Source of the DNA: a virus
Reading direction: 5' to 3' (one strand)
DNA length: 40,381 nt
Virus record (IMG/VR): IMGVR_UViG_3300023181_000048
Coordinates: 1-40,381 of that record
Part shown: positions 3,289-8,423 of the stretch, piece by piece
Layout: the number at the start of each line of letters is the position of its first letter
Numbering within the stretch: the first letter of the stretch is position 1
Notes under the pieces: model-generated
The model's database searches: none
Told to the model about the DNA's origin: nothing
The model's input: only the letters and a program-made list of their open reading frames with translations
Program-made: the position numbers and the translations under genes

Positions 3289-3611
3289 TTGGTGCCGCCC
3301 TCCGTAATTGGTGCCATGGCCGCCTTCGACCAAGGCCGCTTTCGTGCTTTTCTGACACGGGCACCGACAGTTACCGGCGTGCTCCCCGTCACCGAATACT
3401 CAGTGCCCATGAATGAGCCGCTGGGGGTGAAGTCGCTCATCCCCACATGAAGCTCGCCTTTGTAATGCCATTGCCGAAGCTCATCGAGGACGATCGTTTT
3501 GCGGAACGGGGCCGTCATCGCACCGGGGCCAAATAACGGCGTGTAGGAGACGGTTAGGCCGTAATGATCTGGGGTTAGGTCACCAGCCGTCATCGTGGGT
3601 TCAGTCGTCAT
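3285..3611 (-). CDS. Hypothetical protein, 108 aa
   Basis: Preceded by a strong Shine-Dalgarno (GAGGAG, seven bases before the ATG). The protein has a beta-rich first half (YGLTVSYTPLFG) and a basic patch RVRKARKRPW near residue 86. No family recognised. The gap to the upstream gene is only about 12 bases. Confidence 0.65.
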   Translation of the reverse strand: MTTEPTMTAGDLTPDHYGLTVSYTPLFGPGAMTAPFRKTIVLDELRQWHYKGELHVGMSDFTPSGSFMGTEYSVTGSTPVTVGARVRKARKRPWSKAAMAPITEGGTK

Positions 3612-3622
3612 CAGGTTCTCCT

Positions 3623-3943
3623 CTATCTGTTTCGTTTGCGGAGTCGTTGAACCTCACGCTGCTTAGCCATATGCGAGTCATCACGAGCCTGAAGTGCCGG
3701 GAGTTGCAGATCCGCAGCCATGTCTGCTGCACGCGCCCACACAATCGTTTTGACGGTCGGTGTCGGGTCGTCGGACAGCACCAACGTGATCCTGTGACGG
3801 GTCAAATACCAGGCGTTCGTCTTCCGGCTATACGACTGATTCAGGGGACGGTCGAACGCATCACGAATCTCATCCGCCGTCACACCCATATCCACCGCGC
3901 GAGTGCATGCGTGACGGGACATCAGGAACGGATTGGCGGTCAT
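3623..3943 (-). CDS. DUF4258-like small protein, 106 aa
   Basis: The start at 3943 forms ATGA with the zinc-ribbon gene. The segment SRHACTRAVDMGVTADEI, followed by a strand pair with TRHRITLVLSD and TVKTIVWA, resembles the DUF4258 type: a conserved R/H-A motif, a helix, then a beta sheet reading like an RNase-fold toxin domain. No antitoxin partner is obvious next to it, so no toxin claim is made. The C-terminus is a basic helix (KQREVQRLRKRNR). Confidence 0.6.
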   Translation of the reverse strand: MTANPFLMSRHACTRAVDMGVTADEIRDAFDRPLNQSYSRKTNAWYLTRHRITLVLSDDPTPTVKTIVWARAADMAADLQLPALQARDDSHMAKQREVQRLRKRNR

Positions 3944-4119
3944 GGCTGGGCCTCGGCAATCCGAAGAACATCGACCGAGCACCACGGACACTGGGCATCA
4001 CGCAGGAAGTCACGGTGAATCAAATAGTCGCCGGGACGATGCCACCCACACGAGCAACACACACCGGACAGCAACCGAACCGAACACATCGGACAGTTGC
4101 CCTGATTGGAGACATGCAT
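3940..4119 (-). CDS. Zinc-ribbon protein, 59 aa, first gene after the long leader
   Basis: Three Cys clusters are visible: C9-x2-C12, C21-C22-x-C24 and C44-x2-C47, fitting one or two zinc ribbons. It begins with ATG at 4119 and ends with ATGA overlap to the next gene. Being the first gene downstream of the boxB/boxA/boxC site, it could be a nucleic-acid-binding regulator or an antitermination factor. That role is inference from position only; no family was recognised. Confidence 0.65.
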   Translation of the reverse strand: MHVSNQGNCPMCSVRLLSGVCCSCGWHRPGDYLIHRDFLRDAQCPWCSVDVLRIAEAQP

Positions 4120-4400
4120 TAGCAGTCACTTCCCGAAAGGCCAGAAAGGCGATGACGTGCCGGATGCCCTGGTACGCGATACCAGTGGAGCCGGTCAGGG
4201 CTGAAACCGGCCGTTCCCGTATCCCCAACAATCCAGCGCCTGAAATAACGGGGCCTAAGCCAGTCGACGCAATAGTCACCGGCAGGGCCTCTTCGGTGTC
4301 TTGCGGTGACCGAGCGTCCTTTGAACTCCATAACAATCAGCCCCTATCTGTCGGGTTGCGGGCACACCAAACGGTGGGACCGGAGAAGTGTTGCCGGGTG

Positions 4401-4433
4401 CTGCGGTCGCCCCGTGAAAGTGAACGACCGCAG
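4401..4433. repeat. Perfect 9-bp inverted repeat
   Basis: CTGCGGTCG at 4401-4409 pairs with CGACCGCAG at 4425-4433 across a 15-base loop. It is a stable GC-rich hairpin in the leader with no U tract on either side, so it is a structural RNA element rather than a simple terminator. Confidence 0.55.
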
Positions 4434-4750
4434 CGGGTGGCGACCCGCGCCGACTCGCGTCATCAAGACGCCCTACGGCCACAGCCTCGCCACTGCCGTG
4501 ACAGGGCAGGAGAGAAAGCAAAGGCTGTGATTGCTCGAGTAGACCTGCCGCCGATGAAAGCGACAGGCCCTAGTGACTGCCTCGCGATCGTTTACCCCGA
4601 ACAAGCGGGCACCCCGGAAGGCCATCTGCAGACACAAAAGATTTGTTCGCCGGCCTCGAGCTGCTAGTCGATCCGGCACAGGGATTTCCGCCCCCAACCC
4701 CTCACACCCGCTACGGCGGAGGGCACCCCTTCTTTGTCTTCGAGGTATCG

Positions 4751-4787
4751 CTATTGAGTTCTCAAGGAGCATCCGGGCACGCCGGAT
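4751..4787 (-). promoter_or_regulatory. nut-like antitermination site (boxB-boxA-boxC)
   Basis: Read on the minus strand, a hairpin ATCCGG-CGTGC-CCGGAT (4787-4771, 6-bp stem, 5-base loop) is followed directly by TGCTCCTTGAGAA (4771-4759). This matches E. coli boxA (TGCTCTTTAACAA) at 10 of 13 positions. It runs into GAACTCAATAG (4761-4751), the 11-base boxC RNA bound by NusA KH domains in the M. tuberculosis rRNA leader (recalled from the published NusA-RNA complex). Order and spacing match actinobacterial rrn leaders. It should let NusA/NusB-type complexes modify RNA polymerase entering the early operon. Confidence 0.75.
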
Positions 4788-4790
4788 AGT

Positions 4791-4818
4791 GCCTCCGACC
4801 GGTCCGTGACTCGGAGGC
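4791..4818. repeat. 8-bp inverted repeat upstream of the nut-like site
   Basis: GCCTCCGA (4791-4798) pairs with TCGGAGGC (4811-4818) over a 12-base loop. It lies 3 bases upstream (minus sense) of the boxB-like hairpin and may stack with it. Confidence 0.5.
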
Positions 4819-4840
4819 TGAGCTTGTTAGCTCGGAAGGA

Positions 4841-4867
4841 CTCGTAGGGCTTCGGGCGAGCTACGAG
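4841..4867. repeat. 7-bp inverted repeat, possible terminator of the cro-HNH block
   Basis: CTCGTAG (4841-4847) pairs with CTACGAG (4861-4867). It follows the small ORF ending at 4887 but has no U tract, so an intrinsic terminator is doubtful. It might be a Rho-related or structural element upstream of the antitermination site. Confidence 0.4.
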
Positions 4868-4886
4868 GCCAGGAAGATGGAGGCCG

Positions 4887-4988
4887 TCAACAACGGCGGA
4901 CCAGGGCGAACACACACAACAGCGGGGTCAGGTTGCGGTAGACGCGCGAGGTAGCTGGTGCAGTGGGTGGAGGTGGGGTGGGGATCAT
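4887..4988 (-). CDS. Possible small protein, 33 aa
   Basis: Starts in an ATGA overlap with the stop of the 91-aa gene. The N-terminus is proline-rich (IPTPPPPTAPAT); a short hydrophobic stretch (LTPLLCVFALV) follows. The overlap argues for translation; composition is otherwise unconvincing. It may be chance. Confidence 0.3.
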   Translation of the reverse strand: MIPTPPPPTAPATSRVYRNLTPLLCVFALVRRC

Positions 4989-5260
4989 GCGGACACCTGC
5001 CGCAGCTTCATCTCGCCGTTGATGAAATGGGTTTCATTCCACATCGAGAACTTGGTGGTCCCGACTGCGAGATACGCACCAGGCCATTCGAAAGTGACAG
5101 TGCCGTTCTCACTCGGCGTCACGTCAGTGTCGGGACGATTCCAGATGGAAACCAACGCCCAACAGTTGGCTACGACCTCGGGCAGCGGCGCAAACGAGTC
5201 CTTGCCGTTCCATCCGTCTTCCAACTCGGTGAGCTGCTGAAGCTCGCTTGCGGCGGTCAT
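4985..5260 (-). CDS. Hypothetical protein, 91 aa
   Basis: Starts at 5260 in an ATGA overlap with the HNH stop. It reads ELQQLTELEDGWNGKDSFAP..PEVVANCWALV, then a strand-rich part ending in NGEMKLRQVSA. The L-x-x-L-x-D-G-W-N/D-G-x-x-A pattern is common in small prophage proteins of unknown function. Soluble, acidic. Confidence 0.7.
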   Translation of the reverse strand: MTAASELQQLTELEDGWNGKDSFAPLPEVVANCWALVSIWNRPDTDVTPSENGTVTFEWPGAYLAVGTTKFSMWNETHFINGEMKLRQVSA

Positions 5261-5745
5261 GCGTTTGCCTTCTTTGCTACTCGGCACGCATCACAACGGC
5301 ATGCGTAGTTGGTGTAGCCGTTTGTCGTGCCGTGCACACGATCAGGAATCGGTGAGGTACCGCGTCGGCGTCGGTTGGCGTAGGCACCTTCGCGACGGCA
5401 CGTCTTGCATACACGTGCCCCACCACTGCTGGTGTAAGGGTGGCCGTTGGGACACGCCGTCGAAGCCATATGACGGGCGGTTGGGGCAGTCCCGCGGCGG
5501 ATATTCTCACGCTGCGTGACTGGTTCTAGGTGGTCCGGGTTCACGCACGAATGGTTACGGCAGAGGTGGTCGATAACCAGACCTACGGGGATGGGCCCTA
5601 CATGCACTTCGTAGAAGTAGCGGTGCGCGTAACCGTGGCTTCCGGCACGACCATAACCTCGAGGAAGGCGGGGGCCGGTGAAGTTCCAGCATCCGGCAGC
5701 GTCGACTTCGTAGCGCGACAGGTGATCGATGGCGGCGGGGGTCAT
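5257..5745 (-). CDS. HNH endonuclease with C-terminal zinc fingers, 162 aa
   Basis: A homing-type HNH core is visible: residues 54-80 contain the segment V-I-D-H-L-C-R-N-H-S-C-V-N-P-D-H-L, the conserved D-H...N-P-x-H-L signature. Further Cys pairs follow (C-P-N-G-H, C-K-T-C, then C-R-C-D-A-C near the end), probably binding zinc. It is likely a free-standing nuclease of selfish origin inserted after xis. It is coupled by ATGA overlaps to xis and to the next gene. Confidence 0.85.
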   Translation of the reverse strand: MTPAAIDHLSRYEVDAAGCWNFTGPRLPRGYGRAGSHGYAHRYFYEVHVGPIPVGLVIDHLCRNHSCVNPDHLEPVTQRENIRRGTAPTARHMASTACPNGHPYTSSGGARVCKTCRREGAYANRRRRGTSPIPDRVHGTTNGYTNYACRCDACRVAKKANA

Positions 5746-5966
5746 GCGCTCTGCCCTCTCGTAGCATCGCGCTCTTTGATCTTCTCGATGTAGGTGTCCA
5801 GTTCGGACTTCCGGTACATCACTCTTCTGCCGTCGCCTACGGGGGTGATGTCCTTCGACTCGCGTAGGCGGTCGAGGTCACGCAGCGACCCGGAGATGTA
5901 GTAGGCGGCAAGTTCTCGTGTCATCAGCGCCGGCGGGAACTCAATCCGCAGCAGGGGGCCGGTCAC
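5742..5966 (-). CDS. xis: Excisionase-like MerR-type HTH protein, 74 aa
   Basis: Starts with GTG at 5966, overlapping the Cro-like stop as GTGA. Residues 15-56 carry the small winged-HTH pattern of Xis/helix_turn_helix_17 proteins: TRELAAYYISGSLRDLDRLRESKDITPVG then a Tyr-Arg-Lys wing. The proposed role is to bend attachment-site DNA and direct the integrase to excision. Position next to cro and near int supports this. Confidence 0.75.
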   Translation of the reverse strand: MTGPLLRIEFPPALMTRELAAYYISGSLRDLDRLRESKDITPVGDGRRVMYRKSELDTYIEKIKERDATRGQSA

Positions 5967-6202
5967 GATGCCACCTCGATGGCGACAGGTGGACGGAGGA
6001 GGTCTGTTACCTCAACTCCGAAGTGACGGGCGATCGCGTCCAGCTCGTCAATGGTGAATGCACTCAAAATCAACAGTCGGCGGTTGAGTGTAGAAATGGG
6101 GATGCCCGTTGCGTCCGCCAGATCCTTGACGGTCTGACGAGTGCGACCGAGGTGGGCTCGTACTTCCCCGGCCGCGACTTCGGTTCTTCTTTGGTAGCTC
6201 AT
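5963..6202 (-). CDS. Cro-like HTH transcription regulator, 79 aa
   Basis: The start at 6202 (MSYQRRTEV) is chosen because the promoter -10 sits just upstream; an in-frame ATG at 6223 would lie inside the operator. A helix-turn-helix is readable at about residues 22-45 (TRQTVKDLADATGIPISTLNRRL), followed by IDELDAIARHFGV, typical of XRE-type DNA-binding domains. Transcribed divergently from the repressor, it is the first gene of the leftward early operon and a Cro analogue by position. Confidence 0.8.
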   Translation of the reverse strand: MSYQRRTEVAAGEVRAHLGRTRQTVKDLADATGIPISTLNRRLLILSAFTIDELDAIARHFGVEVTDLLRPPVAIEVAS

Positions 6203-6209
6203 GTGAAAT

Positions 6210-6238
6210 ACCGTATCACACACAAGATACGTTGTCTA
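6210..6238 (-). promoter_or_regulatory. Early leftward promoter overlapped by a palindromic operator
   Basis: On the minus strand, -35 TAGACA (6238-6233) and -10 TACGGT (6215-6210, fits TANNNT) are separated by 17 bases. The inverted repeat CGTATC (6212-6217) / GATACG (6226-6231) fills the spacer and part of the -10, so a bound repressor would block polymerase. A further GATACG half-site is at 6287-6292 in the first codons of the repressor gene, which suggests autoregulation. Confidence 0.65.
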
Positions 6239-6280
6239 GCACCAGTGCAATCTAATTTCTCGTGTGCGATGATTTATCTC

Positions 6281-6637
6281 ATGTCAGATACGCTTCAGCC
6301 GAGCCCGCTCAACGAGAAGATCGCAGAGATACTTCGCGAACGCATCGCAAAGTTCCGACTCACGCAAGCATCGATCGCGCGCGTAGCGGGTCTTTCGCAG
6401 TCCTATATGTCGTCCGTGCTAGGCGGCACCAAGCCGTTGAACGTCGATCAGCTAGAAGCTGTCTGTTATTCGTTGGGGTTGGAAATCGATGACGTTTTAG
6501 AACGAGCGGTGCGTGAAGTGCGCGATGAAGGGTGGACCCCTGACGTTCCCGACTTCAGTGTCAGGGGCAACGTGGAGACTGCGAACATGGCGACGAAGAG
6601 GTCGACCAAGAAGAAGGACTCACCTTCTGCTGACTAA
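6281..6637 (+). CDS. Immunity repressor, XRE-family HTH, 118 aa
   Basis: The N-terminal helix-turn-helix spans about residues 10-65 (IAEILRERIAKFRLTQASIARVAGLSQSY, then SSVLGG, then LEAVCYSLGLEIDDVL), a standard Xre/CI-type domain. The C-terminal 45 residues are basic and low-complexity (KRSTKKKD) with no LexA-like autocleavage domain. Start ATG at 6281 is the last in-frame Met before the HTH; an upstream Met at 6269 is possible. With the adjacent ImmA-like protease it forms a repressor/anti-repressor protease pair rather than a RecA-dependent switch. Confidence 0.85.
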   Translation: MSDTLQPSPLNEKIAEILRERIAKFRLTQASIARVAGLSQSYMSSVLGGTKPLNVDQLEAVCYSLGLEIDDVLERAVREVRDEGWTPDVPDFSVRGNVETANMATKRSTKKKDSPSAD

Positions 6638-6655: not shown

Positions 6656-7093
6656 ATGCAAGAACTTATGAAGATCGCCGCAAGTATCAGGGTCCGAGTG
6701 CACATCTCACACCTTGATGACGATGAAGTCCTAGGGGCATACGACCACTCAACTCGCACAATTCACCTCAGCTTTGGCCTTACCCCCTTCGAACTTCGGT
6801 CTGTTCTGGCGCACGAGCTTGCGCACTGCCTCATGGGTGACCAGTGCAGCACCAGCGCGAACGAGAGAAGAGCCGAACGGCACGCTGCGCAGATGCTCAT
6901 TGCGCCGGAAGATTACGCGGCCGCTGAATCGATCGACCCCTCCCCCGCTGCGATAGCTGACGAGCTGCAGGTGACAGTCGACATTGTGACCGCGTACCAG
7001 GAGCAGTGTTTGCAGCGCCTCGGTGGGCGAACCTATGGCCGCTCATGGCGCACTGGTCTGTCTGGTGCGTTGGCCCGTCAGCTTTCGAGCTGA
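6656..7093 (+). CDS. ImmA/IrrE-family zinc metallopeptidase, 145 aa
   Basis: The zinc motif H-E-L-A-H is at residues 53-57, and a downstream helix NERRAERHAAQML (69-81) supplies the likely third ligand Glu74. In the ImmA family such proteases cleave the phage or ICE repressor to induce the element. It sits 18 bases behind the repressor with a GGGGGA ribosome site, so the pair is co-transcribed. The last 16 bases overlap the convergent integrase gene. Confidence 0.85.
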   Translation: MQELMKIAASIRVRVHISHLDDDEVLGAYDHSTRTIHLSFGLTPFELRSVLAHELAHCLMGDQCSTSANERRAERHAAQMLIAPEDYAAAESIDPSPAAIADELQVTVDIVTAYQEQCLQRLGGRTYGRSWRTGLSGALARQLSS

Positions 7094-8295
7094 CGTCTCT
7101 TCTCGAGCTTGTCCATTGCCTCTGATGCATCCTGTGACGAAACGTGCTGGTATCTGCCGGTCACACCCGGTGACTTGTGTCCGACCATCTCGCCAATCAC
7201 ACGGTCTGCAGTTCCACCTGCTGTCATGTCGGAGATGGCCGTGTGTCTCGCCCAGTGAGTGGTCGCCCCAGGTCTGTCGATTCCGGCCGCCCTGAGTAGC
7301 GCTCTCCACTGTTCCTGATCGGATCTGGGGAGGATGGGTGAGCCGTCTTCTGCCGGCCACAACAGTCCGTGCGGGTTCGGTTGTGAGTTGGCCCGGTCGA
7401 TCTGGTCTTGCAGGATGGATCGGAGTCCTTCGGGGATGGGGAAGGTGCGTTCTTCGCCCGACTTCGGCGGGACCAGCATGAGCCGCCCTTTGAGTACCCG
7501 GTAGTCGGTTACGTCGGGGATCACGAGTCGTTTCTGGGGACAGTGACCGGCCGCCTTTTTGCCGCAGTCGCCAGCGCACCCGTGTTCGTAGTTGCCTTCG
7601 ACCAGGTTCCAGCGGACGGTGAATGTGCCCCGCTCGAGGTCTACGGAATCGATCGTCGCGCCCAGCCGTTCCCCCTGGCGGATGCCCGCGTAGAGGGACA
7701 CCAGCCATTTGGAGCCGTCCGGTATCTGCTTAGCGACTTCCAGGACGTTGAATGTTTCCGCTGGGCTGAGGCTGTCACGGGTGGTCTTCGCCGCTTTGGG
7801 TGGGCGGATGTCGGCGGCCACATTCCGGTCGGTGATCCGCTCAAGTCGTGCCTGTTCGAACATGGCCGACATGACGTTGTGCGCTTTGAGGGCAGTAGAC
7901 GACGCGCGTCCGGCGGCTTTGATGTTGGCGTAGACCTTCGCCAGATCAGACGGGCGGATGTCTTTGACTTTCCGTCGTCCGATCTGTGGCAGAACCCATG
8001 TCTTCAAGATGGAGTTATAGGTGCGGTACGTCTGCGGCTTCTTGGCCTTCACCATCTCCAACCACAAAACGCCCCACTCGGCAACCGTCTGATTGCCGAG
8101 TGGGGCGTCGTGAGTGTTGACTTCGGTGATGAGCTTCGCGAGTTTCGCACGCGCTACAGATTGGGACTTCGAGGTGACGCGGACTTGTTTCCGCTTGCCC
8201 TCAGGGGTGAAGCCGTTGTCGTACGAACCTATCCACAGCTTGCGCGCGGCGTCGAAGTAGAGCCCACCTTGACCGGTGCTGCGCTTGCGGGGCAT
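7078..8295 (-). CDS. int: Tyrosine-type site-specific integrase, 405 aa
   Basis: Start at 8295 is set by AAGGAG six bases upstream. An N-terminal arm-binding domain (residues 1-60) is followed by a SAM-like core-binding domain (about 65-160) and the catalytic domain. Catalytic residues: Arg206 (in AGIRQGERL), His347-x-x-Arg350 (HWARH), His373 (GHKSPGV) and nucleophile Tyr382 (GRYQHV). A Cys-rich insert C-x3-C-x7-C (about 240-252) lies between the first Arg and the HxxR box, as seen in some actinophage integrases. It recombines attP, just upstream, with a host attB. Confidence 0.95.
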   Translation of the reverse strand: MPRKRSTGQGGLYFDAARKLWIGSYDNGFTPEGKRKQVRVTSKSQSVARAKLAKLITEVNTHDAPLGNQTVAEWGVLWLEMVKAKKPQTYRTYNSILKTWVLPQIGRRKVKDIRPSDLAKVYANIKAAGRASSTALKAHNVMSAMFEQARLERITDRNVAADIRPPKAAKTTRDSLSPAETFNVLEVAKQIPDGSKWLVSLYAGIRQGERLGATIDSVDLERGTFTVRWNLVEGNYEHGCAGDCGKKAAGHCPQKRLVIPDVTDYRVLKGRLMLVPPKSGEERTFPIPEGLRSILQDQIDRANSQPNPHGLLWPAEDGSPILPRSDQEQWRALLRAAGIDRPGATTHWARHTAISDMTAGGTADRVIGEMVGHKSPGVTGRYQHVSSQDASEAMDKLEKRRQLES

Positions 8296-8423
8296 CGGTG
8301 CTCCTTGGGTTGTCTGTCGTGTGCGGTCCACTGCCCGCCGATGATGCCGATATGAATTGGTCTTCTATGTACTGGCTGCTTATGATTCATGGGTCGAGCC
8401 TGCTTTCTCAGGTATTCGATCGA

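Follow-up and report, generated by a model that had tools for sequence, protein, structure and literature searches.

The closest described counterparts of the site analysed here are the antitermination (nut) sites of actinobacterial rRNA (rrn) operons and of phage lambda. Work attributed to Arnvig in 2004 and Beuth in 2005 is said to have placed a nut site, in the order boxB-boxA-boxC, in the rrn leader of Mycobacterium tuberculosis. The 11-mer GAACTCAATAG, which we take to be the RNA bound by mycobacterial NusA, is presumably also the boxC RNA contained in structures 2asb and 2atw. In lambda, nutR lies downstream of cro, and nutL and nutR work with N. For the mycobacterial rrn nut site, a passage of PMC12781872 states that NusA enhances read-through. 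Nus sites are also found outside rRNA: excerpts of PMC7862264 on boxA before CRISPR arrays report, citing Stringer et al., that an added boxA raised precursor-crRNA approximately 10-fold in Legionella, and that boxA placed before a synthetic CRISPR array raises array transcription. Nus complexes can act oppositely as well, since an excerpt of PMC5725501 describes repressed translation, leading to Rho termination, at the boxA of Escherichia coli suhB.

The phage site described here shares features with each of these systems. Its boxC is that of Leucobacter leaders, its boxA is the same as in host leaders at all but one variable position, and the elements stand in the same order; however, it lies in an early operon and not before rRNA, and is an rrn-type site, not an rrn site. 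As in lambda, a cro-like gene precedes boxA and a hairpin in the early operon of a phage, but the order is hairpin-boxA-boxC (boxA precedes boxB in lambda), an rrn-type boxC is present and no N gene was recognised. Going by the excerpts cited above, it would resemble the CRISPR-array boxA as a host Nus site outside rRNA for long untranslated RNAs, whereas those are boxA elements of bacterial arrays and here phages carry boxA with an actinobacterial boxC. The boxA of suhB and other genes, as far as the same excerpts describe it, likewise lies outside rRNA, but acts there through translation repression and then Rho termination.

The initial annotation had remarked that it knew of no description of such a site for this phage type, and our searches agree: among the papers listed from the openly licensed literature, no title or abstract opening described an rrn-type signal in actinophages, and we found no account in that literature of polymerase passage through long actinophage early operons in high-GC hosts. 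A paper on cluster M phages, which reportedly deals with repeats present in several of the phages considered here, may mention the signal. PMC7953290 speaks of repeats CR1-CR4, and its text contains no match for "leader" or "promoter".

Results

The window, meaning the whole stretch of DNA analysed, comprises 40,381 nt (IMG/VR record IMGVR_UViG_3300023181_000048, positions 1 to 40,381). The hairpin, boxA-like block and exact 11-mer that had been annotated at 4751-4787 were all present as described and at the right coordinates; the strand, left unstated in that annotation, is the minus strand. Read 5' to 3' from 4787 to 4751, the sequence consists of the hairpin, boxA, boxC and then CG. The hairpin (ATCCGG-CGTGC-CCGGAT, 4771..4787), which the initial annotation called boxB, has a 6-bp stem and a 5-nt loop and reaches -8.7 kcal/mol when folded alone. 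The 13-nt block read as boxA (TGCTCCTTGAGAA, 4759..4771) shares GAA with boxC (GAACTCAATAG, 4751..4761), an exact 11-mer that is present once in the window and is identical in Leucobacter rrn leaders. The window's boxA has the form G-N-T-C-[CT]-T-T-G-A-G-A-A, and the boxC form GAACTCAA[CT]AG follows exactly, right behind it. Allowing up to one mismatch, the 11-mer matched once in the window, compared with a mean of 0.25 in shuffled windows; because 25 out of 100 shuffled windows also gave at least one match, the 11-mer alone is weak evidence, and what sets the site above chance comes from sequences beyond the window. Rfam families gave no match at the site (E up to 5) or in the leader, and tRNA and Rfam scans of the window found no tRNA or rRNA.

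The family-recognised genes all lie on the minus strand, with the exception of the repressor pair. Upstream of the site and in the same operon is a Cro-like HTH gene (5963..6223, minus strand; phrog_4583 transcriptional repressor, 1e-14; Pfam HTH_26 above cut-off), followed on the minus strand by an HTH_17-type gene that may be excisionase-like (5742..5966; Pfam HTH_17, 1.8e-5, below cut-off), an HNH endonuclease gene (5257..5745; phrog_826, 4.9e-41) and a gene without a family match (4985..5287; GC3 0.72). The last of these ends just before a non-coding stretch of 653 nt (4332..4984, minus strand) that holds the site and contains no coding-like minus-strand ORF. Divergent from this operon is a C1-type repressor ORF (5918..6637, plus strand; HTH_26 at residues 139-195), whose true start is probably later, and an ImmA-like metalloprotease gene of the Peptidase_M78 family (6656..7093, plus strand; Pfam 8.3e-8; phrog_87, 1e-17). 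Family matches on the minus strand further identified an integrase (7078-8331), a methyltransferase (1112-2026), the terminase, portal, protease, capsid and tape measure genes (from 30 kb down to 18 kb) and a replication initiator with a second methyltransferase (38-40 kb); the latter two would be next in order if the record is circularly permuted. With the Cro-like, HTH_17, HNH and unknown genes ahead of it on the minus strand, the site belongs to the early operon and follows cro, a position like that of nutR in lambda. The description of the locus as a phage early leader thus holds for its place in the early operon but not for a transcript start, as the Cro-like, HTH and HNH genes come before it.

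Small minus-strand ORFs run from 4331 downward after the non-coding stretch, the first of them lying 434 nt from the site. This first ORF past the leader (4119..4331, minus strand; 70 aa, 18% Arg+Lys) is a doubtful gene, with a flat codon composition (0.62/0.61/0.56) and no family. Another ORF (4473-4772, minus strand) begins inside boxA; its codon composition is also flat, and in its first 211 nt, six out of eight differences from the related contig L044 fall at codon positions 1 or 2. We rejected the leader as a protein gene on the basis of codon composition and substitutions. A protein search found no relatives of the neighbouring 100-aa protein. Scanning 3300-5800, we found no sigma-70-type promoter and four terminator-like sites, where shuffles averaged 1.7, which is near chance. 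One of the four, at about chance level, lies on the minus strand at 4445-4426, after the site and ahead of the first ORF.

Genomes of Leifsonia, Leucobacter and Rathayibacter yielded three portal homologues with 64-65% identity; the phage host therefore probably belongs to the Microbacteriaceae. The core pattern TTGAGAACTCAANAG was present in 175 out of 199 Microbacteriaceae genomes, and its reversed pattern in 0 out of 199. Among 42 copies in fetched host loci, some of which overlap, 33 had a 16S-start string 138-316 nt downstream and nine ran off the contig within 190 nt. At class level, 115 out of 148 genomes matched and none matched the control, as counted without an rrn check (hits L306-L333). 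The rrn leader reads GGTCCTTGAGAACTCAATAGTG in Leucobacter and GATCCTTGAGAACTCAACAGCG in Leifsonia, and the fetched host leaders carry TTGAGAACTCAA[CT]AG. Their boxA, G[AGT]T[CT][CT]TTGAG, is the same in the window except at one variable position, and the window block has 18 nt in common with the Leucobacter leader. The likeness to an rRNA leader proposed in the initial annotation was therefore borne out for the core of the site. Leucobacter NusA is also close to M. tuberculosis NusA (1k0r, E 3e-96; 2asb, E 1e-76).

Unlike the host leaders, the phage block does not continue with TGCAC after boxC. An exact search found the window 21-mer TGCTCCTTGAGAACTCAATAG in no genome_contigs record; the phage block is therefore not a plain copy of a leader in genome_contigs, and recent copying from a host leader is not supported.

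A first scan of viral contigs with a 15-mer gave matches mixed with many AT-rich ones that probably arose by chance, and for this reason we chose a longer pattern, YTTGAGAACTCAAYAGYG, together with a reversed control. This extended motif was present in 94 IMG/VR contigs, not all independent, versus three for the reversed pattern. We examined 91 of the 94 contigs (by motif, the remaining three should be L109, L111 and L115) and obtained 92 sites with 82 distinct flanks, 88 out of 92 being in loci with a GC content of 0.45 or more; the four sites in AT-rich loci are probably chance matches. In the AT-rich contig L228, a 16S-start-like string lies no more than 700 nt from the site, which may be of another nature. 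At 77 distinct sites from loci with a GC content of at least 0.45, the bases left unfixed by the pattern were G at -4 in 67 sites, T at -2 in 46 and C at -1 in 48; the corresponding binomial tails were 2e-17, 6e-8 and 6e-5, under assumed backgrounds and for sites that are not fully independent. These conserved bases are boxA bases, all three are present in the window, and the consensus of the 77 sites is GNTC[CT]TTGAG. Seven out of the 92 sites are followed by a same-strand tRNA gene no more than 3 kb away. One contig, L033, matched the DNA of Streptomyces phage Ibantik with 84% identity over 23%.

Host leaders also retrieved sequenced phages. In INPHARED searches at E up to 10, for which counts include duplicate records and close relatives, a 40-mer from a Leucobacter leader (L187) matched 108 records, 106 of them actinobacterial phages, and its exact reversal matched one. 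The L187 contig ends 99 nt past the 40-mer, and its twin L189 has a 16S string 198 nt downstream. A Leifsonia leader 40-mer matched 107 records, 103 of them actinophages, in a search with the forward pattern only. Among the matches listed, 56 out of 60 for the Leucobacter 40-mer and 50 out of 60 for the Leifsonia 40-mer fell in DNA without an annotated feature. A query made from a phage site (L081), again with the forward pattern only, matched 54 records, 53 from actinobacteria, with 51 out of 54 in feature-free DNA; this query favours its own group because its flanks were included. The motif was absent from the last 6.5 kb of Arthrobacter phage Seahorse.

We selected 13 isolates from the INPHARED matches to span genera. 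The site was oriented toward the next gene in all 13. In eight out of 13 (MrMagoo, Refuge, Gilson, Manuel, P3.1, Bantam, Ejemplo and Saftant), it lay 137-500 nt ahead of the first gene of a block, behind unannotated DNA. Six of these eight blocks begin near the end of the record, and those of Gilson and P3.1 are internal; we take the end-of-genome blocks in these isolates to be early operons. In Bongo (L294, 2507), the site lies between tRNA-Trp and tmRNA, just ahead of tmRNA, and in Myrna (L295, 2503), with one base changed, it lies within a tRNA array. Three out of 13 fit a free leader more poorly: the site is within an annotated CDS in Coruscant, at a CDS start in GuyFagieri and 13 nt before a CDS in Keanu. 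One-base variants of boxC were seen in Saftant and Myrna. Taken with the 94 versus three contigs, these placements support recurrence of the site in many actinophages, often ahead of the first gene of a gene block. Tandem boxA-boxC sites were observed in Streptomyces phage Manuel (L298; 782 and 1188, approximately 400 nt apart, the first reading TTGAGAACTCAAAAG) and in contig L060 (5814 and 6580, approximately 770 nt apart).

Conservation was limited in the phage's own lineage. We searched 31 portal relatives together with the window and L044, a record that the motif had served to retrieve, making 33 virus records in all. Among these records, TTGAGAACTCAANAG was exact in the window and L044 only, and thus in none of the 31 portal relatives, 13 of which are at least 35 kb long. 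At up to two mismatches, it matched three out of 33 records (the window, L044 and G018) and the reversed pattern four out of 33; G018 has one place with one mismatch and a second with two. Within the portal relatives, this amounts to one out of 31 (G018) versus four out of 31 for the reversed pattern, so inexact matches in relatives are no better than the control. The L044 leader is 94.6% identical to that of the window over 429 nt. The closest relative, G002, whose portal is 99% identical to the window's, retains the hairpins upstream and, ahead of the first ORF, a 50-nt block, and the site itself is replaced by another sequence, by eye another hairpin. The initial annotation had proposed searching related phages for this block at the corresponding place, and it was found in two of the three phages with the leader (the window and L044), but not in G002 and not, as an exact match, in the portal relatives.

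In IMG/VR, exact patterns built on the leader's two conserved parts matched only L044 and G002. The stretch GGATGCTCCTTGAGAACTC is common to the window, L044 and a 61-kb contig (L152). A blast search of the leader against phages gave nine records, with E of 0.1 or worse and none at the motif, and the nearest phage by integrase, Microbacterium phage vB_MoxS-R1, is without the motif.

The leader contains other conserved elements, compared here in three sequences only (the window, L044 and G002). Between the window and G002, hairpin 1 (CTCGTAG...CTACGAG, 4841..4867, minus strand) differs by two pairs in which both bases have changed, by one wobble and by one pair that is broken; hairpin 2 shows no change among the three phages; and hairpin 3 (CTCCGA...TCGGAG, 4793..4816, minus strand) keeps six out of six pairs in all three, one as a wobble. 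The 50-nt block (4341..4390, minus strand) is nearly identical in the three phages and stands just before the first downstream ORF, which is a different one in each. A further hairpin, CCTGTCGCTTTCATCGGCGGCAGG (4544-4567, minus strand), is also present in G002 and may be a structured leader element; in the L044 counterpart, loop and stem both differ but a stem is retained, by eye. At L158:16258-16317, a tRNA-like 3' half ending in CCA, recognised by eye, lies just before the conserved block and the first early gene of G002.

Discussion

We consider it likely, from the sequence comparisons above, that the block is an rrn-type nut site that recruits the host Nus complex for read-through into the early genes. 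Transcription of the early operon would pass the Cro-like, HTH and HNH genes, and the nascent RNA would expose boxA, as a target for host NusB-NusE, and boxC, which host NusA would bind through its KH domains. The complex used at the host's rRNA genes would then load on RNA polymerase and carry it through the long untranslated leader, and the termination-resistant polymerase would proceed into the following early genes with rrn-like processivity. The observations in support are the sequence itself, its identity with the host rrn leader, its over-representation in viral contigs and actinophages, its orientation in all 13 isolates and its frequent placement in untranslated DNA ahead of a gene block or beside tRNA and tmRNA genes. 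From these we infer factor binding, antitermination and, perhaps, the dispensability of a phage N-like protein. Counted against the reading are the absence of the exact motif from the 31 portal relatives, its replacement in G002, its absence from vB_MoxS-R1, the lack of a conserved boxB, the three out of 13 isolates that depart from the pattern, the boxC variants in Saftant and Myrna, the lack of a promoter match near the site and the opposite action reported for the Nus complex at suhB.

An unlikely alternative is a lambda-type arrangement in which host factors are insufficient and boxA and boxC need a phage N-like protein that binds the hairpin as boxB. The hairpin adjoins boxA, its stem is unchanged in L044 with one loop change, and short Arg-rich ORFs overlap (4473-4772) or follow (4119-4331) the site. 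However, both ORFs are flat in codon composition, the stem is broken in G002, and the 50 nt upstream of the site in the window have no more structure than shuffled sequences (z -0.24). Over 78 phage sites, the mean z of the upstream 50 nt was -0.42, with 20 below -1; the downstream 50 nt gave a mean of -0.73, with 31 below -1. The upstream 50 nt of 52 host-genome copies, including class-level copies counted without an rrn check, gave a mean of -1.37, with 34 below -1. The weak upstream values across phage sites and in the window give no support to boxB as an element common among phages, and with its stem broken in G002 the hairpin does not appear to be a conserved part of the site. PHROGs named no antiterminator in the 29 distinct window ORFs scanned, a subset of the ORFs, although N proteins are hard to detect.

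Recruitment of Nus factors could instead serve regulation, such as repression or timing, or titrate NusA and NusB away from host rRNA synthesis. The events reported for suhB in the excerpt of PMC5725501 give such regulation a precedent; processive transcription of untranslated RNA instead agrees with the sites at tmRNA and tRNA genes and with those placed 137-500 nt ahead of a first gene, and a single copy in the window is poorly suited to titration. We regard this explanation as quite improbable.

It is very unlikely that TTGAGAACTCAA acts as a DNA operator for a phage or host regulator. The core is a near palindrome, with the inverted repeat TTGAG-AA-CTCAA, but its conserved flanks are asymmetric (G-N-T-C before it and, in host leaders, [CT]AG after it), the site follows the direction of the next gene in every isolate examined, and all 33 testable copies fetched from the host family are rrn leaders. 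A functionless chance or coding match is barely credible: the exact 11-mer is not rare by itself, the site is traversed by an ORF and the portal relatives lack an exact copy, but the excess over the reversed pattern in viral contigs, the conservation of boxA beyond the search pattern and the codon positions of the differences from L044 all speak against it.

The rrn-type boxA-boxC is known in the hosts; what appears to be new is its form in phages, ahead of early genes or among tRNA genes. Beyond the single locus, we propose, with the balance about even, that actinophages widely use N-independent early antitermination, in which the host boxA-boxC alone, in a long leader or a tRNA/tmRNA array, would give rRNA-like processivity, as a module that can be exchanged with other leader modules, as in G002. 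A short, recognisable host signal before early genes and at tRNA arrays would offer a general and testable explanation of early-operon transcription, and the boxA-boxC signal would serve as an annotation handle. The phage sites would also be natural places to study the separate roles of boxA and boxC away from rRNA.
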